Positions 1,037 to 43,227 of a stretch of DNA of 64,000 nt are shown in pieces (within the stretch, counting starts at the first letter, position 1; each line of letters begins with the position of its first letter). Origin of the DNA: Puniceicoccales bacterium (GTDB lineage Bacteria > Verrucomicrobiota > Verrucomicrobiia > Opitutales > UBA953); contig JAISZI010000046.1 of the NCBI GenBank assembly GCA_031269335.1, forward strand, positions 1-64,000. The letters run 5' to 3'. Made by a program: the position numbers and the translations under genes. Under the pieces are notes generated by a model. It was not told the DNA's origin and searched no databases. It saw only the letters and a list, made by a program, of their open reading frames with translations.

Positions 1037-2068
1037 CTACGGCGTGTGTCCGTGCTGGCAAGCGCACAATCGCGCGGGAGCGGCGGCCGGGGCAAAATCT
1101 TCGTTGCGGGAGGCGAACCATGCGCGGGCGGCGGTGATATCGCGTTCGATTTGGGAGCGGAGGGCGGATATGTCGGTGAATTTTTTTTCGGGGCGGAAAA
1201 AGTGCAGCCATTCTACGCGCAACCGGGCGCCCTCGTTAAAACCTGCGGCGGCGACGGCGGCGGTGTCTGCCAAGAGATGTGTTTCCAATAACGCGCTGGC
1301 GGGCGTGGCGGTTGAAGAAAAAATCGTCGGGCGCAGGCCGTAGTTGGCGATACCCGGAAACCATTTGCCGCGCTCGCCCCTTTGGGCGCGGACGGCGTAA
1401 ACGCCAGCGCGTGGGCGTGCTTCCGGTTCCCACGGCAAGTTCAACGTCGGTGCGCCGATTGTCCGCCCCAGTGCACGCCCGCCGACAACTACGCCCTCCG
1501 TCGTGTAGGCGCGTCCTAACAGGGCGGCGGCGCCGGCGACATCGCCCGTTTCGAGCAAGGCGCGGATGCGTGTGCTGCTCACGCGGGAGCCGTCCGCTAC
1601 GACGTCGGCGGTGGCGGTGACGTGCAAGCCGAGTGTTTTTGCCAAGGTGGCGAGTAGGGCGACATTTCCCCCGCGACCCCGTCCAAAACGAAAATCTGTT
1701 CCGACATGGATGCTCGTTAGGGAGCGCACGTGGCGAAGCAGCAGATTCAAAAATGCCTGCGCATCCATGGCGGCGAACTCCGGTGTAAATGGCTCATGGA
1801 CTACGCATTGCGCGCCTAACTCGGCGAACAGCCGATCTTTTTGCGCATCGTCGTAGATGCACGGCACGAGGCGTTTCGGGTGCAAGATGTGGCTCGGGTG
1901 CGGGGAAAAAGTGAGGATGGCAGCGGAGCCTCCAGAAGCGGCGGCGGCGGCAGCGGCGGCGCCGATGACGGCGCGGTGGCCGAGGTGAACACCGTCGAAT
2001 ACGCCAATGGCGAGGTGAACGGGCGGCGGCAGAGCGGGAAAAAGAGCGAGGGAATCGAAGCGAAGCAT
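1037..2068 (-). CDS. ribF: Bifunctional riboflavin kinase / FAD synthetase
   Basis: Makes FMN from riboflavin and then FAD. The N-terminal adenylyltransferase domain shows the nucleotidyl-transferase motif GVFDGVHLGH (about residues 22-31) and a second block around FRFGRGRGGN. The C-terminal riboflavin kinase domain has GAPTLNLP (the PTxN motif, about residue 205) and GVYAV. I place the start at the ATG beginning MLRFDSLAL because the conserved domain begins just after it; an in-frame ATG 11 codons upstream (2101) is also possible. It sits 48 bp after the lpxK stop and before uppS, all on the minus strand. The final 25 residues are alanine-rich and poorly conserved-looking. Confidence 0.94.
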   Translation of the reverse strand: MLRFDSLALFPALPPPVHLAIGVFDGVHLGHRAVIGAAAAAAAASGGSAAILTFSPHPSHILHPKRLVPCIYDDAQKDRLFAELGAQCVVHEPFTPEFAAMDAQAFLNLLLRHVRSLTSIHVGTDFRFGRGRGGNVALLATLAKTLGLHVTATADVVADGSRVSSTRIRALLETGDVAGAAALLGRAYTTEGVVVGGRALGRTIGAPTLNLPWEPEARPRAGVYAVRAQRGERGKWFPGIANYGLRPTIFSSTATPASALLETHLLADTAAVAAAGFNEGARLRVEWLHFFRPEKKFTDISALRSQIERDITAARAWFASRNEDFAPAAAPARLCACQHGHTP

Positions 2069-2116
2069 GTGAAGCGATATTACCGGTTCAAGCGGTGGCA
2101 ATTGTGGGGACGGTTT

Positions 2117-3352
2117 TCATTTTTCGGTTTCCGGAGGGGCGGCTTGGGCGGGTGCCGCCATACCTTCGCAGATGCGGGCGACGGCGGCGTTGAAGACGTC
2201 TTTGCCGGAGAGAATTTCAATTTCCATGCGCAAGAAATAGACAGGCAGCCGCCACTTTCGGGAGGGGTCCATGCGAACCGCGTCCTTTTCCGTCGTCACA
2301 ACAAGTTCGGCGTCGCTCTCTGCCGCCTCGTCGAACACGTCCACGAGTTCTTCTTCGGAGAAGCGGTGGTGGTCGAGGAAGCGTTTGTTGTAGAGCACAT
2401 GTGCGCCGTGGGTGCGCACCATTTCCTCAAAACTCTCCGGGGTGGCGATGCCGCTGAAAGTTGCCACGCGCTTTCCCCGCAAGTGTTCCAGCGGGAGCAT
2501 CGCCAATGTATCGAGCGTGCTCAACACACGCGGTCGGTGGGCGCATTCGATAACGCCGACGCCCGGGTTGTTTTTTTTGATGAGAGCCATCAATTCCGGG
2601 TTGGCGGTGCCGTCGGATTTTGTGAGGAAGATATAAGTGCCGCGCCGCAAGTTGGCGATAGGTTCGCGCAAAATACCCCGTGGCAACAGGGAGCCGTTTC
2701 CGAAGGGGTTTTTCTTATCGATGAGGAGCAGGTTTATCTGCCCGCGCAGGGCGAGATACTGCAGCCCGTCATCGAGCAAAATGGTATCGCAGCCAAATTT
2801 CTTGAGTGCGTATGCGCCGGCTTCGACACGGTTACGGTGCACGATGACGACGACGCCGAGCGGACACAGGTTGCGGGCGAGCATGTAAGGCTCGTCGCCC
2901 GCTTCATCGGAGTCGAGGAGCAGGGTTTTGCCATCGGAAACCACGCGCGGCACGGGCGTGTCGGTGTGCGCGCACCAGCGTTTGAATTTATGCCAGGGGG
3001 ACTCGGAGCGGCTTTTGTAGCCGCGGCTTAAAATGACCACTTTGCGCCCGCGCTCGGAAAGCACGCGTGCCATTTTTTCCGCGATGGGCGTTTTTCCCGT
3101 TCCGCCGACGGTGATATTGCCGATTACGACGACTTTGCATCCGAGCGGCGTGTCACTCATCAGCAATTTGTGTTCGTAGAGAAAGGTTCGGATGCTCACT
3201 CCTGCGCCGAAGAACAGGGAGAAGCCTTTCAACACTGCGGCGTAAAAGCGCGTGGCTGGGGTGGATTCTGCACGGTCATAAATTACTTCTGCGGTAAATT
3301 GCACGAAGTGGTCGCGGTAAATGCGGGCGGCGTGGAGAAATCGGGAAAACAC
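2117..3352 (-). CDS. lpxK: Tetraacyldisaccharide 4'-kinase (lipid A)
   Basis: Phosphorylates the 4' position of the lipid A disaccharide precursor at the inner membrane, the last kinase step before Kdo addition. The P-loop [12 protein letters not shown] lies at residues 78-89 after a hydrophobic N-terminal region. ILDD-like block [13 protein letters not shown] and the SRGYKSR segment are typical of LpxK. At 411 residues it is longer than the usual 320-350, with an N-terminal extension of about 40 residues and a C-terminal alanine/glutamate tail. The presence of kdsB at 59.7 kb fits a lipid A/Kdo-type outer membrane. It is first in a minus-strand run with ribF and uppS. Confidence 0.93.
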
Positions 3353-38944: not shown

Positions 38945-39078
38945 AACGCAATAAAAAGTGGACGGTGCCCAAAGGGAATGGACCGTAAGTAAGCACAGCA
39001 GAGGCGCAGCAGGCGAGCAGCCACCGGAGGGGCAGCGAAGGCACGGCGGGCAAGCACCGGAGGCGTGCGTATCACTAC

Positions 39079-39171
39079 TCCCCCGAAGGGAGATAACGTG
39101 AATAACCGGCAGTGAAGCGCAGCGGAACTGCCGGACATTACTCCCCCCACCCTCCGCGCCCCAAAGGGGCA
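39079..39171 (-). repeat. Dispersed palindromic repeat, copy B
   Basis: Same parts as copy A in reverse order: CCCCC-gaa-GGG, the link ATAACGTGAATAA, CCGGCAGT ... ACTGCCGG (39106-39134), then GCGCCCC-aaa-GGGGC. The orientation is opposite to copy A. Confidence 0.75.
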
Positions 39172-39352
39172 GCACCAATATAGCCCAGGGCAACGCCCTG
39201 GGTATTGAATATCATTAACACCATAAGCCCCCAAGGGGCGGCCCCAATTACGGCATAGGGAGGTGCACCCCGCCCCTTTGGGGCTCTTTTTTATTGGTTC
39301 CCAGATACCCAGGGCGTTGCCCTGGGCTATGTTAGAGCCGCCCCTTTGGGGC
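39158..39352. repeat. Long inverted repeat with internal palindromes
   Basis: The left arm (about 39158-39207: GCCCC-aaa-GGGGC, then ATAGCCCAGGGC-aac-GCCCTGGGTAT) returns reversed as the right arm (about 39304-39352: ATACCCAGGGC-gtt-GCCCTGGGCTAT, then GCCCC-ttt-GGGGC in reverse). Each arm is about 48 bp and itself palindromic. The roughly 97 bp between them contain more CCCCTTTGGGG-type palindromes and a six-T run (39287-39292). Confidence 0.7.
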
Positions 39353-39398
39353 TTTAATTTTGTAGCCGGTCCCGCGCTCGTTGCACTCGCGCTCCACC

Positions 39399-39430
39399 AG
39401 CGGTTATTCACGTTATCCCCCTTCGGGGGA
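39399..39430 (+). repeat. Dispersed palindromic repeat, partial copy C
   Basis: Contains only the link CGGTTATTCACGTTAT and CCCCC-ttc-GGGGG in the orientation of copy A. In front of it, in place of the usual CCGGCAGT palindrome, there is a different stretch (GCGCTCGTTGCACTCGCGCTCC). It lies about 55 bp beyond the stop codon of the second PEP-CTERM gene. Confidence 0.65.
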
Positions 39431-39485
39431 AGAGGGGCAGAGACATAGGAGATAGGCTTGATCTTCGTGTGAGACCGGAGGCTAC

Positions 39486-41546
39486 TCACCCCTTGCGTCG
39501 GCGGCGGCGGCGGAGGAAGACCAAGCCGGCGAGCAGGCTGCTGCCCCAGAGGGCGTAAGTGGAGGGTTCGGGGGTGCTGCCAGCGGCGAGGACAATTGTG
39601 TAGCCGGGCATGTCCGGGCTGGTGCTCGTGCTGATGAGCTGCTCGGCGTTTGCGGCGATTATGCTGCTTTCGCTGTCAGGCAGCCACCCGGCTTTTAATT
39701 GGACACCCGCCAGCGCGGTCACAGCTTCCGTGGGTGTCAGCGGCAAATCCTCGCCTTCAGGACCGGCACCTGCATGAATTTCCTGTATTATCAGCATATT
39801 GCCTCGGTGCAGCCAAACCGTTGTTGGAGCAACCAATGCAACACTCACCGCCCCCTCCAATTGCAGCACGTTTCCGTGGGAAGATTCCGAGCCGATGTAA
39901 ATTTCGTCCGCCTTTATTTGCCCGCTCGTACCGCCTTTCGAGGCGTTTGCGCTGACAATGAGGGTGTTGTTGTTCGCTCCGTTAGCCGAGCCGATGTAAA
40001 TTTTGTTTGTTCTTAAAATTCCTTCTACAACGAGCGTGTTGCTACGTGCGCTGGCACTTTTGCCGATATAGACCGCTTTCCCCGTTGCCGTCACAGTAGC
40101 GATGTCAGAATGCCACGCATAACCAACATTTTTGAATTTGCTGAGGATGACCGTGTTGTCGCTGGTGGTGTCGCCGATTATCCAGTCCGTTTTTGAAACA
40201 AAACTCAGCCCCTCCGTTAAGCGGGTGACATTTCCCACGTTCACTGTCGTGAAAGTGCTCACTTGCCCCACGTAGGCTCTGCCTCCGCCATAGACAACAG
40301 TGCCGTCAACAGTGCGGCTCGCAGCGTAGTTCGCGCCCACAATAAAGTTATCGCCGTCCACGCTCACGGAACGACCAAACGAATCACCCGACACCCCATC
40401 CGAAGCGGAGAGTTTGAGTATTTCTGTCGGGGTCCCTGAATCTACCCCTGTGTAGAAGTAAGCCGCTCCTTTGTAAGAATCTTTTGCGAATGCTCCGATA
40501 ATGGCTGTGGTGCCGGATATGCCCACGGAATTACCGAAGTAACCCACCTCTGCTGGATTATCCGAAGCGGTGAGTTTGGTTTGTGTTGGGTTGTCAGAAC
40601 CAACCCCCGTGTAAATGTAAGCCGCTCCTGCGTTAGAATCTTTTGCGCGTGCCCCGACAATGGCTGTGGTGCCGGATATGCCCACGGAACAACCGAAGCC
40701 ATCACCCACTGCCCCATCCGAAGCGGTGAGTTTGTGTTTTTCTATCGGATTATCTGATCCTACCCCCGTGTAGATATAAGCCGCTCCTTGAATATTAGGA
40801 GATCCTTGATTTCCGTATGCCCCGACAATGGCTGTGGTGCCGGATATGCCCACGGAATAACCGAATTGAGCACCACTTACCGCATCCGTAGCGATGAGTT
40901 TTGTTTTTTGTGTCGGGGTGACAGAATCAACCCCTGTGTAAACATAAACCGCTCCTTTGTTAGAATCTTTTCTGTATGCTCCGACAATGGCTGTGGTGCC
41001 GGATATGCCCACGGACCACCCGAAGTTATCCTCATGTGCCGCATCCGAAGCAGTGAGTTTGGTTTCTATCGGGTCATTTGACCCTACGCCCGTGTAGATA
41101 TAAGCCGCTCCTGTGTCCTTAGGCAAGATCGATGGGTTCACCTCCTTTCCGTATGCCCCAACAATGGCTATGGTGCCGGATATGCCTGCGGAATTGAAAT
41201 AACCGAACTGATCGTACTCTGCTCTATCCGAAGCTGTGAGTTTGAGTATTTCTGTCGGGGTGCCTGAATCTACTCCAGTGTAAATGTAAGCCGCTCCTCT
41301 TTGAGAATCTTTTACGTATGCCCCGACAATGGCTGTGGTGCCGGATATGCCCACGGAAGAACCGAAGAGATCATTCGTTACTGGATCAGGATCAGAGGCG
41401 ATGAGGATGGCACCCTGTGCGGTGGGCAAGCAGACAAGACTTGCGGCGGCGAGGACGAGGAAACGCTTGTCGAAAATGCGGAGCTTGGCGGAGCAAGTGG
41501 CACGGGCGAAGGCGGGCGAGAGTGAATTTGGCGAGTGTGTTTTCAT
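39486..41546 (-). CDS. PEP-CTERM protein with FG-GAP-like repeats, second paralog
   Basis: 686 residues, with the same plan as the protein at 25.4 kb: signal peptide ending near AQG, seven propeller-type units of about 53 residues (FGxSVGISGTTAIVGAY ... GAAYIYTGV ... KLTASD), a stretch of YIG...NNTLIV repeats, and a PEP-CTERM tail (PEPSTYALWGSSLLAGLVFL then RRRRRRKG). The units differ in spacer text and some have insertions (for example NPSILPKDTG in unit 2). The N-terminal 20 residues are nearly identical to the paralog. Flanked on both sides by dispersed repeats, unlike the first copy, so it may be the transposed or duplicated one. Confidence 0.85.
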   Translation of the reverse strand: MKTHSPNSLSPAFARATCSAKLRIFDKRFLVLAAASLVCLPTAQGAILIASDPDPVTNDLFGSSVGISGTTAIVGAYVKDSQRGAAYIYTGVDSGTPTEILKLTASDRAEYDQFGYFNSAGISGTIAIVGAYGKEVNPSILPKDTGAAYIYTGVGSNDPIETKLTASDAAHEDNFGWSVGISGTTAIVGAYRKDSNKGAVYVYTGVDSVTPTQKTKLIATDAVSGAQFGYSVGISGTTAIVGAYGNQGSPNIQGAAYIYTGVGSDNPIEKHKLTASDGAVGDGFGCSVGISGTTAIVGARAKDSNAGAAYIYTGVGSDNPTQTKLTASDNPAEVGYFGNSVGISGTTAIIGAFAKDSYKGAAYFYTGVDSGTPTEILKLSASDGVSGDSFGRSVSVDGDNFIVGANYAASRTVDGTVVYGGGRAYVGQVSTFTTVNVGNVTRLTEGLSFVSKTDWIIGDTTSDNTVILSKFKNVGYAWHSDIATVTATGKAVYIGKSASARSNTLVVEGILRTNKIYIGSANGANNNTLIVSANASKGGTSGQIKADEIYIGSESSHGNVLQLEGAVSVALVAPTTVWLHRGNMLIIQEIHAGAGPEGEDLPLTPTEAVTALAGVQLKAGWLPDSESSIIAANAEQLISTSTSPDMPGYTIVLAAGSTPEPSTYALWGSSLLAGLVFLRRRRRRKG

Positions 41547-41577
41547 AGGTTAGAGAAAGTGGGCAGGCAAAAGTAAC

Positions 41578-41598
41578 CCGCAGGGTGTTGTCCTGCGG
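41578..41598 (-). promoter_or_regulatory. Hairpin in the leader of the second PEP-CTERM gene
   Basis: CCGCAGG (41578-41584) pairs with CCTGCGG (41592-41598), about 30 bp before the ATG. A second hairpin GTTGCC-ttttc-GGCAAC stands at 41609-41625. Compare 25375-25390 before the paralog. Confidence 0.4.
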
Positions 41599-41629
41599 TT
41601 AGAAAGAAGTTGCCTTTTCGGCAACAGAA

Positions 41630-41913
41630 ATGAACTGCGGATTATTGCGTAACTACTTGATATTACGCAAGTTGGGGGGGGGGGGGGTAACGAACTACAG
41701 ACAAAAGACATCGACGAAGCAGTCCTCGCCGCCAGTTTGGCGGGAAAAGCATACATGGCATTGACCTTTGATGTCTTCATGGGATTGATTCGTGAAAAGG
41801 AGAATCGATTTACGAAAGCGAGAAATGCGCGGACGGTGAAAATTGTCAAGGGGGGAATTGAATTTTTTTTGAAAAAATGCGGCGGCGCGGCAGATGTGCA
41901 ACGGAAGGCGTAG
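41630..41913 (+). pseudogene. Small open reading remnant split by a run of 14 G
   Basis: From 41689 to the TAG at 41911 an open frame reads like real protein (DIDEAVLAASLAGKAYMAL, then FDVFMGLIREKENRF and KIVKGGIEFFLKKCGG). An ATG at 41630 opens a frame into the G14 tract (41674-41687), but with 14 G it is out of register with the downstream frame; 15 or 12 G would join them into about 94 codons. An 8-bp hairpin TTGCGTAA / TTACGCAA (41645-41652, 41663-41670) lies just before the tract. It may be a decayed gene, a phase-variable gene or, less likely, a sequencing error. I recognise no family. Confidence 0.4.
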
Positions 41914-41928
41914 CGGGAACCTTGCGCT

Positions 41929-42079
41929 CCCCCGAAGGGGGACAACGTGAATAACCGGCAGTGGAGCGTAGCGGAACTGCCGGACAGCGACTCCTCCCTG
42001 CCTGCGCCCCGACGGGGCGCGACCACAAGGAGCATTGGCGAAGTCAGAAGTCGTTGTAGTCGCGCCCCTTCAGGGCGCG
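41929..42079 (-). repeat. Dispersed palindromic repeat, copy D (extended)
   Basis: CCCCC-gaa-GGGGG (41929-41941), link ACGTGAATAA, CCGGCAGT ... ACTGCCGG (41955-41983), GCGCCCC-gac-GGGGCGC (42004-42020), then another GCGCCC-cttca-GGGCGC (42062-42079). Same orientation as copy B, opposite to A. It lies beyond the nuoH stop codon. Confidence 0.75.
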
Positions 42080-42138
42080 TTTTCCCGCGCCACTCTGGCG
42101 AACGGGTCCCTGCACAGTGCCGTGGATTCGCGTCAGCG

Positions 42139-43227
42139 TTACCCGAAGATGCTGTAGAAGCCGAGGTAGAGGGCGAGGTTAGCGAGGGCGAGGGGGAGAA
42201 AGCGTTGCCAGCCGAGTCGCATCACTTGGTCGTAGCGGAAACGCGGGAGTGTCCAGCGCACCCACACGAAGAAAAAGACCATGAGGAAGAGTTTGGCCAA
42301 AAAGACTATTACGCCGATGGCAGAGGCGGTGATCCCGTCTCCGAGAATAGAATTTGGGAGGAGTGGCAGGTTCCAACCTCCGAGAAAAAACAGGATAAAG
42401 AGGGCACTTCCGATTATCATGTGAGCATATTCTCCGACAAAAAAGAGACCGAATTTGAAGCTCCCGTATTCCGTGTGAAATCCGCCCACGAGGTCGGTCT
42501 CGGATTCTGGCATGTCAAAGGGCTGGCGGTTTGCCTCGGCGAATACGGCGATGAGAAACAACAGCGCCCCAATAGGTTGCGTAAAAACATTCCAGAAAGA
42601 ACCTTGCTCTTCGACAATCGTGAAGAGGTTGAGGGGACTTTCTACGCCCGGGCGGGCGGTGGCGAGGATGACGGGAACGATAGCCAGACCGAGCGTCAAT
42701 TCGTAGGAAATGAGTTGTGCTGCTCCGCGAATCGCTCCGAGGAAGGGATACTTGGAATTAGCCGCCCATCCGGCGAGGATTATGCCGTGAACGCCGAGAG
42801 AGGAGACGGCAAACATGAACAGAAAACCGGTATCAACATTGCATAACACCAACGGCACCGTCGCCCCTTCGGCGGTGGTATATTGACCGAAGGGGAGCAT
42901 GACGAGGGCGACGAGCGGCGGTGCCAAAGCGACGCAAGGGGCGACAAAATACCAGAACTTGCGGACGTGGGCTGGGACAGGGTCTTCTTTGAGGAGAAAT
43001 TTCGCGCCGTCGGCGGGCAATTGGATGATGCCGAGGCGTTGGACGAGGGAGCCGAAGATGGGGATCGCGGCGAGGAAGGGAAGTGTCGTGAGGTTGGGAC
43101 CGTGGCGCCCTTGAATCCATGCGGCGACTTTGCGTTCGAGCACCACCGAGTAGCCCGCGAAGGTCATGACGACGACGACGAGCGCGAGGGCGTAGATGAA
43201 ACGGAGAGCGATTTCAGGACTGTCCAC
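42139..43227 (-). CDS. nuoH: NADH-quinone oxidoreductase subunit H
   Basis: Membrane subunit of complex I that forms the quinone-site corner of the membrane arm. Eight or so hydrophobic helices are visible. Signatures: VLERKVAAWIQGRHGPN near the N-terminus, LQLPADGAKFLLKED-like block (QLPADGAKFLLKED), GWAANSKYPFLGAIRGAAQLISYEL, and AEANRQPFDMPESETDLVGGFHTEY. 362 residues, full length, with a 'PRFRYDQ' quinone-side loop intact. No other nuo gene is within 20 kb on either side, so it is not part of a normal nuo operon here. It is the last gene of a minus-strand run from rpmJ. Confidence 0.95.
   Translation of the reverse strand: MDSPEIALRFIYALALVVVVMTFAGYSVVLERKVAAWIQGRHGPNLTTLPFLAAIPIFGSLVQRLGIIQLPADGAKFLLKEDPVPAHVRKFWYFVAPCVALAPPLVALVMLPFGQYTTAEGATVPLVLCNVDTGFLFMFAVSSLGVHGIILAGWAANSKYPFLGAIRGAAQLISYELTLGLAIVPVILATARPGVESPLNLFTIVEEQGSFWNVFTQPIGALLFLIAVFAEANRQPFDMPESETDLVGGFHTEYGSFKFGLFFVGEYAHMIIGSALFILFFLGGWNLPLLPNSILGDGITASAIGVIVFLAKLFLMVFFFVWVRWTLPRFRYDQVMRLGWQRFLPLALANLALYLGFYSIFG

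Follow-up and report, generated by a model that had tools for sequence, protein, structure and literature searches.

Switching of reading frame by slippage in homopolymers is known chiefly from host-associated pathogens. In the opa genes of Neisseria, slipped-strand mispairing alters the number of CTCTT repeats in the region coding for the leader peptide and so shifts the reading frame, and opc, an outer-membrane protein gene of Neisseria, carries a poly-C tract at its promoter (PMC3960869). A poly-G tract in pmpG of Chlamydia trachomatis has been proposed to underlie phase variation (PMC4488443). Among the Verrucomicrobiota, long mononucleotide repeats near gene ends have been proposed for phase variation in Akkermansia muciniphila, which has 21 PEP-CTERM proteins (PMC3048395). 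Invertons of Akkermansia (group 138) have genes with PEP-CTERM sorting domains enriched nearby, and one lies near two autotransporter-domain genes (PMC11892184). Random switching of PEP-CTERM genes is therefore not new in the phylum, whereas leaders that switch by slippage would be. No description of poly-C leaders of PEP-CTERM genes was recognised in the open-licence PMC literature, and nothing was found there on slipped-strand mispairing in Opitut-, homopolymeric tracts in Puniceicocc- or phase variation in termite Verrucomicrob- names.

Here we describe a homopolymer in a 64,000-nucleotide stretch of DNA from a Puniceicoccales bacterium (the window), whose genome (G000) comprises 2.5 Mb in 113 contigs. 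The closest named relatives of the neighbouring NuoH are from Puniceicoccales and Opitutae MAGs (best 79% identity), several of which presumably come from termite guts, going by their isolate names. The tract occupies positions 41674-41687 and reads as 14 C on the minus strand (14 G on the plus strand). It is the sole run of 14 G in the window when both strands are searched, and a run of this kind was seen in 0 of 100 dinucleotide shuffles, the tract being longer than expected by chance. On the minus strand it ends 127 nt upstream of the ATG of a PEP-CTERM surface protein gene, and it holds the same position in paralogs. We estimate the probability at roughly 60% that this poly-C run serves as a contingency tract and that it lies in a transcribed 5′ leader of that gene. 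From their sequence context, this tract and the related ones described below are probably slipped-strand contingency loci, here placed on N-terminal leader cassettes in what would be a variant of the Opa scheme.

Downstream of the tract, the gene at 39486-41546 (minus strand) encodes 686 amino acids with FG-GAP_2 repeats (PF14312, E=2.3e-88), and has its own ATG and signal peptide, both downstream of the leader stop. The protein is predicted to be exosortase-sorted, of the type marked by a C-terminal PEP motif, a hydrophobic stretch and a basic end; its C-terminus scores 19.1 bits against TIGR02595, above the cut-off of 16, and the protein scores 19.8 bits against PF07589, slightly below the cut-off of 20.7. 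A search of the genome contig collection found no relative of it. A repeat, CCGAAGGGGG...AACGTGAATAACCGGCAGTG, occurs on both sides of the gene and in both orientations (41927-41990, 39082-39136 and 39399-39432). An RNA family search of 39000-43000 gave seven listed matches, none of which overlaps the tract or its leader. Sub-threshold matches to the Acido-Lenti-1 RNA (RF01687) lie at 39308-39353 on the plus strand and 39157-39202 on the minus strand; contig C45 is densely occupied by similar copies (L080, 3190-3737), so these matches look like a dispersed repeat.

The tract forms part of a dispersed element (41551-41880) that is present, whole or in part, in nine places in the genome; 37 relatives gave only matches of 21-37 bases, in six genomes. 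On the minus strand the order is a TTGACA block, a leader frame beginning MKTSK..., the poly-C tract, three hairpins and then the gene. The block, CCTTGACAATTTTCACCG (41834-41851), contains a perfect TTGACA (41844-41849), a candidate -35 sequence 63 nt upstream of the leader ATG. No -10 sequence is evident near the block, and a consensus promoter scan around the window tract reports none. Since TTGACA is intact in all seven copies examined, including copy C17, the promoter more likely lies upstream of the leader, which would place the tract within the transcript. The putative leader frame (41550-41780, minus strand; 76 aa, MKTSKVNAMYAF...SSL-PPPPP-TCVISSS...HFL*) crosses the tract at C14 and ends at a TAA 3 nt before the PEP-CTERM ATG. 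Its MKTSK... start is shared by the window and copies C74, C58, C10, C109, C77 and C41, and the first 28 codons are free of stops in 6/6 copies compared.

The length of the tract differs among the own-genome copies that carry it, being 14 in the window, 16 in copy C74, 17 in copy C10 and 27 in copy C58, whereas over the 130 nt that follow it these four are 92-97% identical. The leader of copy C74 reads through like that of the window (78 aa); those of copies C10 and C58 lose the register and terminate after 47 and 45 aa, respectively, the sequence of copy C58 being damaged and smeared after its 27 C. Copy C41 has no tract, and the closing TGA of its 63-aa leader overlaps the ATG of the gene. 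In copy C17 the paralogous gene is intact (672 aa), the leader ATG has become ACG, and both tract and hairpins are missing. Copies C109, C77, C27 and C17 are truncated, some by contig ends, with C109 and C77 cut off by noise there. Two further loci of the same genome, on contigs C45 and C87, each have a tract of 20 C ahead of a large secreted-type protein; at this length the C45 leader frame ends 81 nt short of the gene, which is reached instead by a frame with no ATG ahead of the tract. Stretches related to the CCGAAGGGGG...AACGTGAATAACCGGCAGTG repeat also lie near copies C17, C41 and C77. Near another copy of the element, at L077 (G000:C74, 4829-5262), the PEP-CTERM gene is found as a deletion derivative, its start joined to its end and most FG-GAP repeats gone.

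Three hairpins lie between the tract and the gene on the minus strand, and the post-tract RNA folds into them with -36.4 kcal/mol (z -5.25 against shuffles). H1 (41645-41671) directly follows the tract, and in the other two registers the leader meets a stop inside it, 11 or 21 nt past the tract. H2 (GTTGCC-GAAAA-GGCAAC, 41609-41625) and H3 (CCGCAGG...CCTGCGG, 41578-41598) have T-rich tails and are terminator-like. In copy C41, H2 reads GTTGTC...GACAAC, a two-sided change that preserves the pair, and H3 is missing; the H3 stem is constant and its loop variable in copies C99, C74, C58 and C10. A terminator scan of 41480-42100 returned three minus-strand sites, one of them upstream of the tract, where shuffles average 1.0 (sd 0.9). 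The layout is that expected of a translation-dependent transcription attenuator, with a leader frame, two terminator-like hairpins and then the gene. The H1 palindrome was also considered as a dispersed site in its own right, and was set aside when a search of the own genome found the exact pattern in the window copy only.

Under the mechanism we propose, slipped-strand mispairing would alter the number of C and hence the reading frame of the leader that begins at 41780. At C14 this frame would cross the tract and the hairpins and end just short of the surface-protein ATG, whereas in the other registers translation would stop inside the first hairpin. Expression of the surface protein could then be switched by re-initiation, ribosomes that reach its start codon beginning again there. 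As an alternative step, translating ribosomes could prevent the two terminator-like hairpins from forming. We infer that the tract slips in living cells, that the leader is transcribed and translated, and that expression is affected as a result. For the window copy, action through the frame by coupling or attenuation is put forward more tentatively, because an open frame from tract to gene is common both by chance and in controls: per-locus shuffles give p 0.32-0.69, with a six-locus product of about 0.02, and such a frame was found for 9/10 control starts over 127 nt and 6/9 over 202 nt, a crude comparison in which some starts are doubtful. It is conceivable, if rather doubtful, that the element is a phase-variable attenuator, in which tract length would set whether ribosomes run through the tandem terminator-like hairpins to the start codon of the surface protein or fall off in the first. 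Leader, homopolymer and hairpins would then make up a mobile unit, a portable 5′ cassette of which this verrucomicrobial lineage has placed copies before several secreted proteins, beside a protein-fused form.

The protein-fused form is found in G002, a genome of the window's genus in which 46 PEP-CTERM matches and, counting contig-end noise, 49 poly-C runs of at least 12 were found. Here a repeated leader is followed by a poly-C tract of 11-23 and then by signal peptide and body. The effect of slippage would be direct in this form, and a wrong length would halt translation early, because the tract lies within the coding sequence. Tract length in the window changes the frame of the leader only, whereas in G002 it changes that of the body. 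A query with the G002 leader gave 21 matches, all in G002 and none in the other eight genomes of the genus. Eighteen of these 21 loci were read, and in all 14 that could be measured the stretch between the ATG and a conserved anchor is free of stops and has a length divisible by three. Leader, tract and a body of secreted type are combined in eight copies, where the frame of the body stays open to the end of the sequence examined (27-493 codons). No in-frame ATG occurs within the first 50 codons after the tract in five of the eight, and in the other three it is found at codon 18-19. All eight bodies have in-frame GTG or TTG codons 45-162 nt past the tract, so a weak downstream start is possible.

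As assembled, three of these eight copies are in frame (L215, L219 and L220) and five are out (L211, L212, L213, L214 and L217), which is about the split expected from free slippage. Among paralogs of this draft assembly, L213 and L217 are identical over 82/82 nt after tracts of 18 and 17 C, and L219 and L220 over 173/175 nt after tracts of 11 and 19 C. Loci L150 and L141 have PATR repeats and a PEP-CTERM end, one scoring above and one just under the PEP-CTERM cut-off. In another form, poly-C lies 110-274 nt upstream of the own ATG of further secreted-type genes, and at L172, L188 and L296 it follows a short leader starting M[SP]RR. A ninth copy, at L228 (G002:C108, about 1500-3033), has leader and poly-C before a gene unlike a surface protein, which we take by eye to resemble a GHKL-type ATPase. 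The 49 matches were reduced to 25 usable loci, the rest being contig-end G/C noise or the same loci again. Reading these by eye, on the strand that carries poly-C, showed a protein of signal-peptide or PEP-CTERM type after the tract in 18/25; three had leader-like sequence only or a leader before another gene, and four had neither. Homology between the window leader and those of G002 is not claimed, the score being reached by 221/500 shuffles for one leader and 16/500 for another.

Similar arrangements occur in other relatives. On the minus strand of L164 (G008:C42), 18 G lie in frame between a leader, MNMNSRNRFPKK..., and a signal peptide; the protein of this locus (leader MNMNSRNRFPKKGQ...) is Pmp-like, has more than 1000 aa and GGAI repeats, and scores 20.4 bits against PF02415, just below the cut-off of 20.6. 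In G005, 142 nt separate a tract of 14 C from the downstream ATG of a gene whose product has GGAI-type repeats and a length of at least 860 aa. At L247 (G040:C1, positions 93-105) in a sister genus, 12 C lie between TTGACA and TACAAA with a signal-peptide gene downstream, possibly as a promoter-spacer tract.

Poly-C runs of 12 or more were found in at least one place in 26/79 genomes of the family. They occur in 9/9 genomes of the window's genus (189 runs, noise included), in 1/1 of genus g4 (4 runs), in 7/8 of g3 (38 runs, half in one genome), in 9/55 of g2 (10 runs) and in 0/6 of g5. The counts per genome, again with noise included, are highest in G003 (63), followed by G002 (49), G008 (32), G004 (20) and the window's own genome (16). 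In an automated count over six genomes, a signal-peptide gene lay downstream of 20/61 clean internal tracts on the poly-C strand and of 6/61 on the poly-G strand, or 19 and 5 without one tract positive on both (sign test, p 0.007); the test is crude, the 20 including one noise tract of 75 C and two tracts that share a gene. It left out tracts less than 150 nt from the end of a locus and set aside five with nearby G/C runs. The association varies between species. With 20 regions examined in each of G003 and G008, mostly A/T-preceded ones in the latter, a signal-peptide gene on the poly-C strand was found for 4/18 clean tracts in G003, which has the most tracts of all, and for 0/4 in G008. The expectation that each tract in the genus should stand before a surface gene fails in these two genomes, and G006, with 47 PEP-CTERM matches, has just one tract of at least 12. 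As G003, G008 and G006 fit poorly, a tract before a surface gene is a trait of some species and not of all.

The tract could act otherwise than through the frame of a leader. If it lay in or beside the promoter of the PEP-CTERM gene, its length could set transcription by spacing, for which opc is a precedent (PMC3960869) and to which the upstream G002 tracts and the spacer-like tract of L247 lend some colour. This we think unlikely, as the TTGACA block is upstream of the leader and is retained in copy C17, which has neither leader start nor tract, the consensus scan places no promoter around the window tract, and other G002 loci hold theirs inside coding sequence. Just as improbable, in our judgement, is that the element is a decaying or inert dispersed repeat and the tract a slippery remnant without influence on the gene, even though several copies are truncated and the paralog of copy C17 is intact with no tract. 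Consistent with such decay, no purifying selection is detectable on the leader codons, pN/pS being 0.91 in the own genome and 0.94 in G002, where the first of two anchor sites was taken as the end of four leaders. An alternative minus-strand frame with pN/pS 0.35 was rejected, having a stop in 1/6 copies and stopping before the tract in the window; its variable columns by codon position (8, 14 and 7 of 28) are too few to weigh. What argues against an inert repeat is the similar placement of tracts before secreted-type genes, behind unrelated leaders, in four genomes of the genus (the own genome, G002, G005 and G008), together with the frame preserved in all 14 measured G002 leaders. Tracts of such length are also unstable and would be expected to shrink unless renewed.

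Assembly quality bears on the lengths given above. The assemblies are damaged near long G/C tracts (copies C58, C77, C108 and C109, and many G002 contig ends), so that lengths may be off by one or more. Contigs C77, C108 and C109 of G000 and C44, C51 and C127 of G002 end in long G or C noise, several of them at copies of leader and tract, and such ends may conceal further members of the family. The turn to G noise straight after leaders, which we take to be dark-cycle base calling, and the smearing after the tract of copy C58 would fit a tract, or a length, produced by two-colour base calling or homopolymer error. We regard this as very unlikely for the tract itself, which is internal to a contig of 79,863 bases, has clean flanks matching those of other copies and recurs in similar places at independent loci and in other genomes; its length could nevertheless be wrong. 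Least probable of all is a small plus-strand gene, out of frame, running from an ATG at 41630 through the tract to 41911, as put forward in the preliminary description. That ATG and the 14 G behind it are present in the sequence, and in the window itself an open frame follows the tract (41737-41913, plus strand). The ATG is kept, however, in 2/5 covering copies (the window and copy C41) and is ACG in copies C74, C58 and C10; an in-frame TGA interrupts the frame in 4/7 aligned copies (C74, C58, C109 and C77); and most variable columns map to first codon positions. The relatives that the preliminary description had suggested looking for did not appear, the 58-aa frame having no Pfam or NCBIfam match at E 0.1, and we reject it as a gene. 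The idea of a homopolymer acting as a frame switch fares better, being backed by paralogs and by relatives in the same genus, but it had been placed on the wrong strand and given the wrong product; the switched product is more likely the minus-strand surface protein downstream. The proximity of the PEP-CTERM gene, also pointed out there, proved a useful clue, the tract preceding that gene on the minus strand. The proposed "off" state had rested on the frame that is not conserved; with a leader frame that reaches its stop 3 nt before the PEP-CTERM ATG, the minus-strand C14 register would, if anything, be "on".

If the tract is indeed a contingency tract in a transcribed leader and its relatives act likewise, an uncultured lineage of the Puniceicoccales/Opitutae would randomise much of its (exosortase-)sorted surface, with a dense set of tracts where surface proteins of the PEP-CTERM, PATR-repeat and Pmp-like kinds begin. 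A role would thereby suggest itself for the PEP-CTERM genes that occur in many near-duplicates. Should the window's combination of leader and hairpins function in the proposed way, slippage would there be acting in a less common manner, on a gene whose own coding sequence stays intact.

Compared with the described systems, the fused G002 copies are closest to opa, sharing with it a repeat in the 5′ leader region of a surface-protein gene, but the repeat unit is a single C (or G) and not a pentamer, and the leader is common to different bodies. The window gene differs further, its leader frame being separate from the surface-protein gene and followed by hairpins; it lacks the defining feature of the Opa type because the tract lies outside its coding sequence, whereas the fused G002 copies have it. 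With opc (PMC3960869) the window shares poly-C upstream of a surface gene, although here the tract is apparently in a transcribed leader and not in the promoter. The 18 G in the leader of the Pmp-like protein of G008 recall pmpG (PMC4488443), which belongs to another phylum, while the tracts of G002 accompany numerous genes, from other protein families as well. For A. muciniphila, also of the Verrucomicrobiota, homopolymer phase variation has been suggested, but the repeats described in the portion of that paper at hand are (G)8 and (C)10 in two capsule-synthesis genes, with no link made there to PEP-CTERM proteins or to a shared leader (PMC3048395). The Akkermansia invertons resemble the system proposed here in that surface genes of this kind are switched at random, again within the Verrucomicrobiota; they are invertible promoters, working by DNA inversion and not homopolymer slippage, and the available part of that report does not mention tracts (PMC11892184). 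One phylum would then have come to the same end by two mechanisms, slippage in the lineage described here and DNA inversion in Akkermansia.
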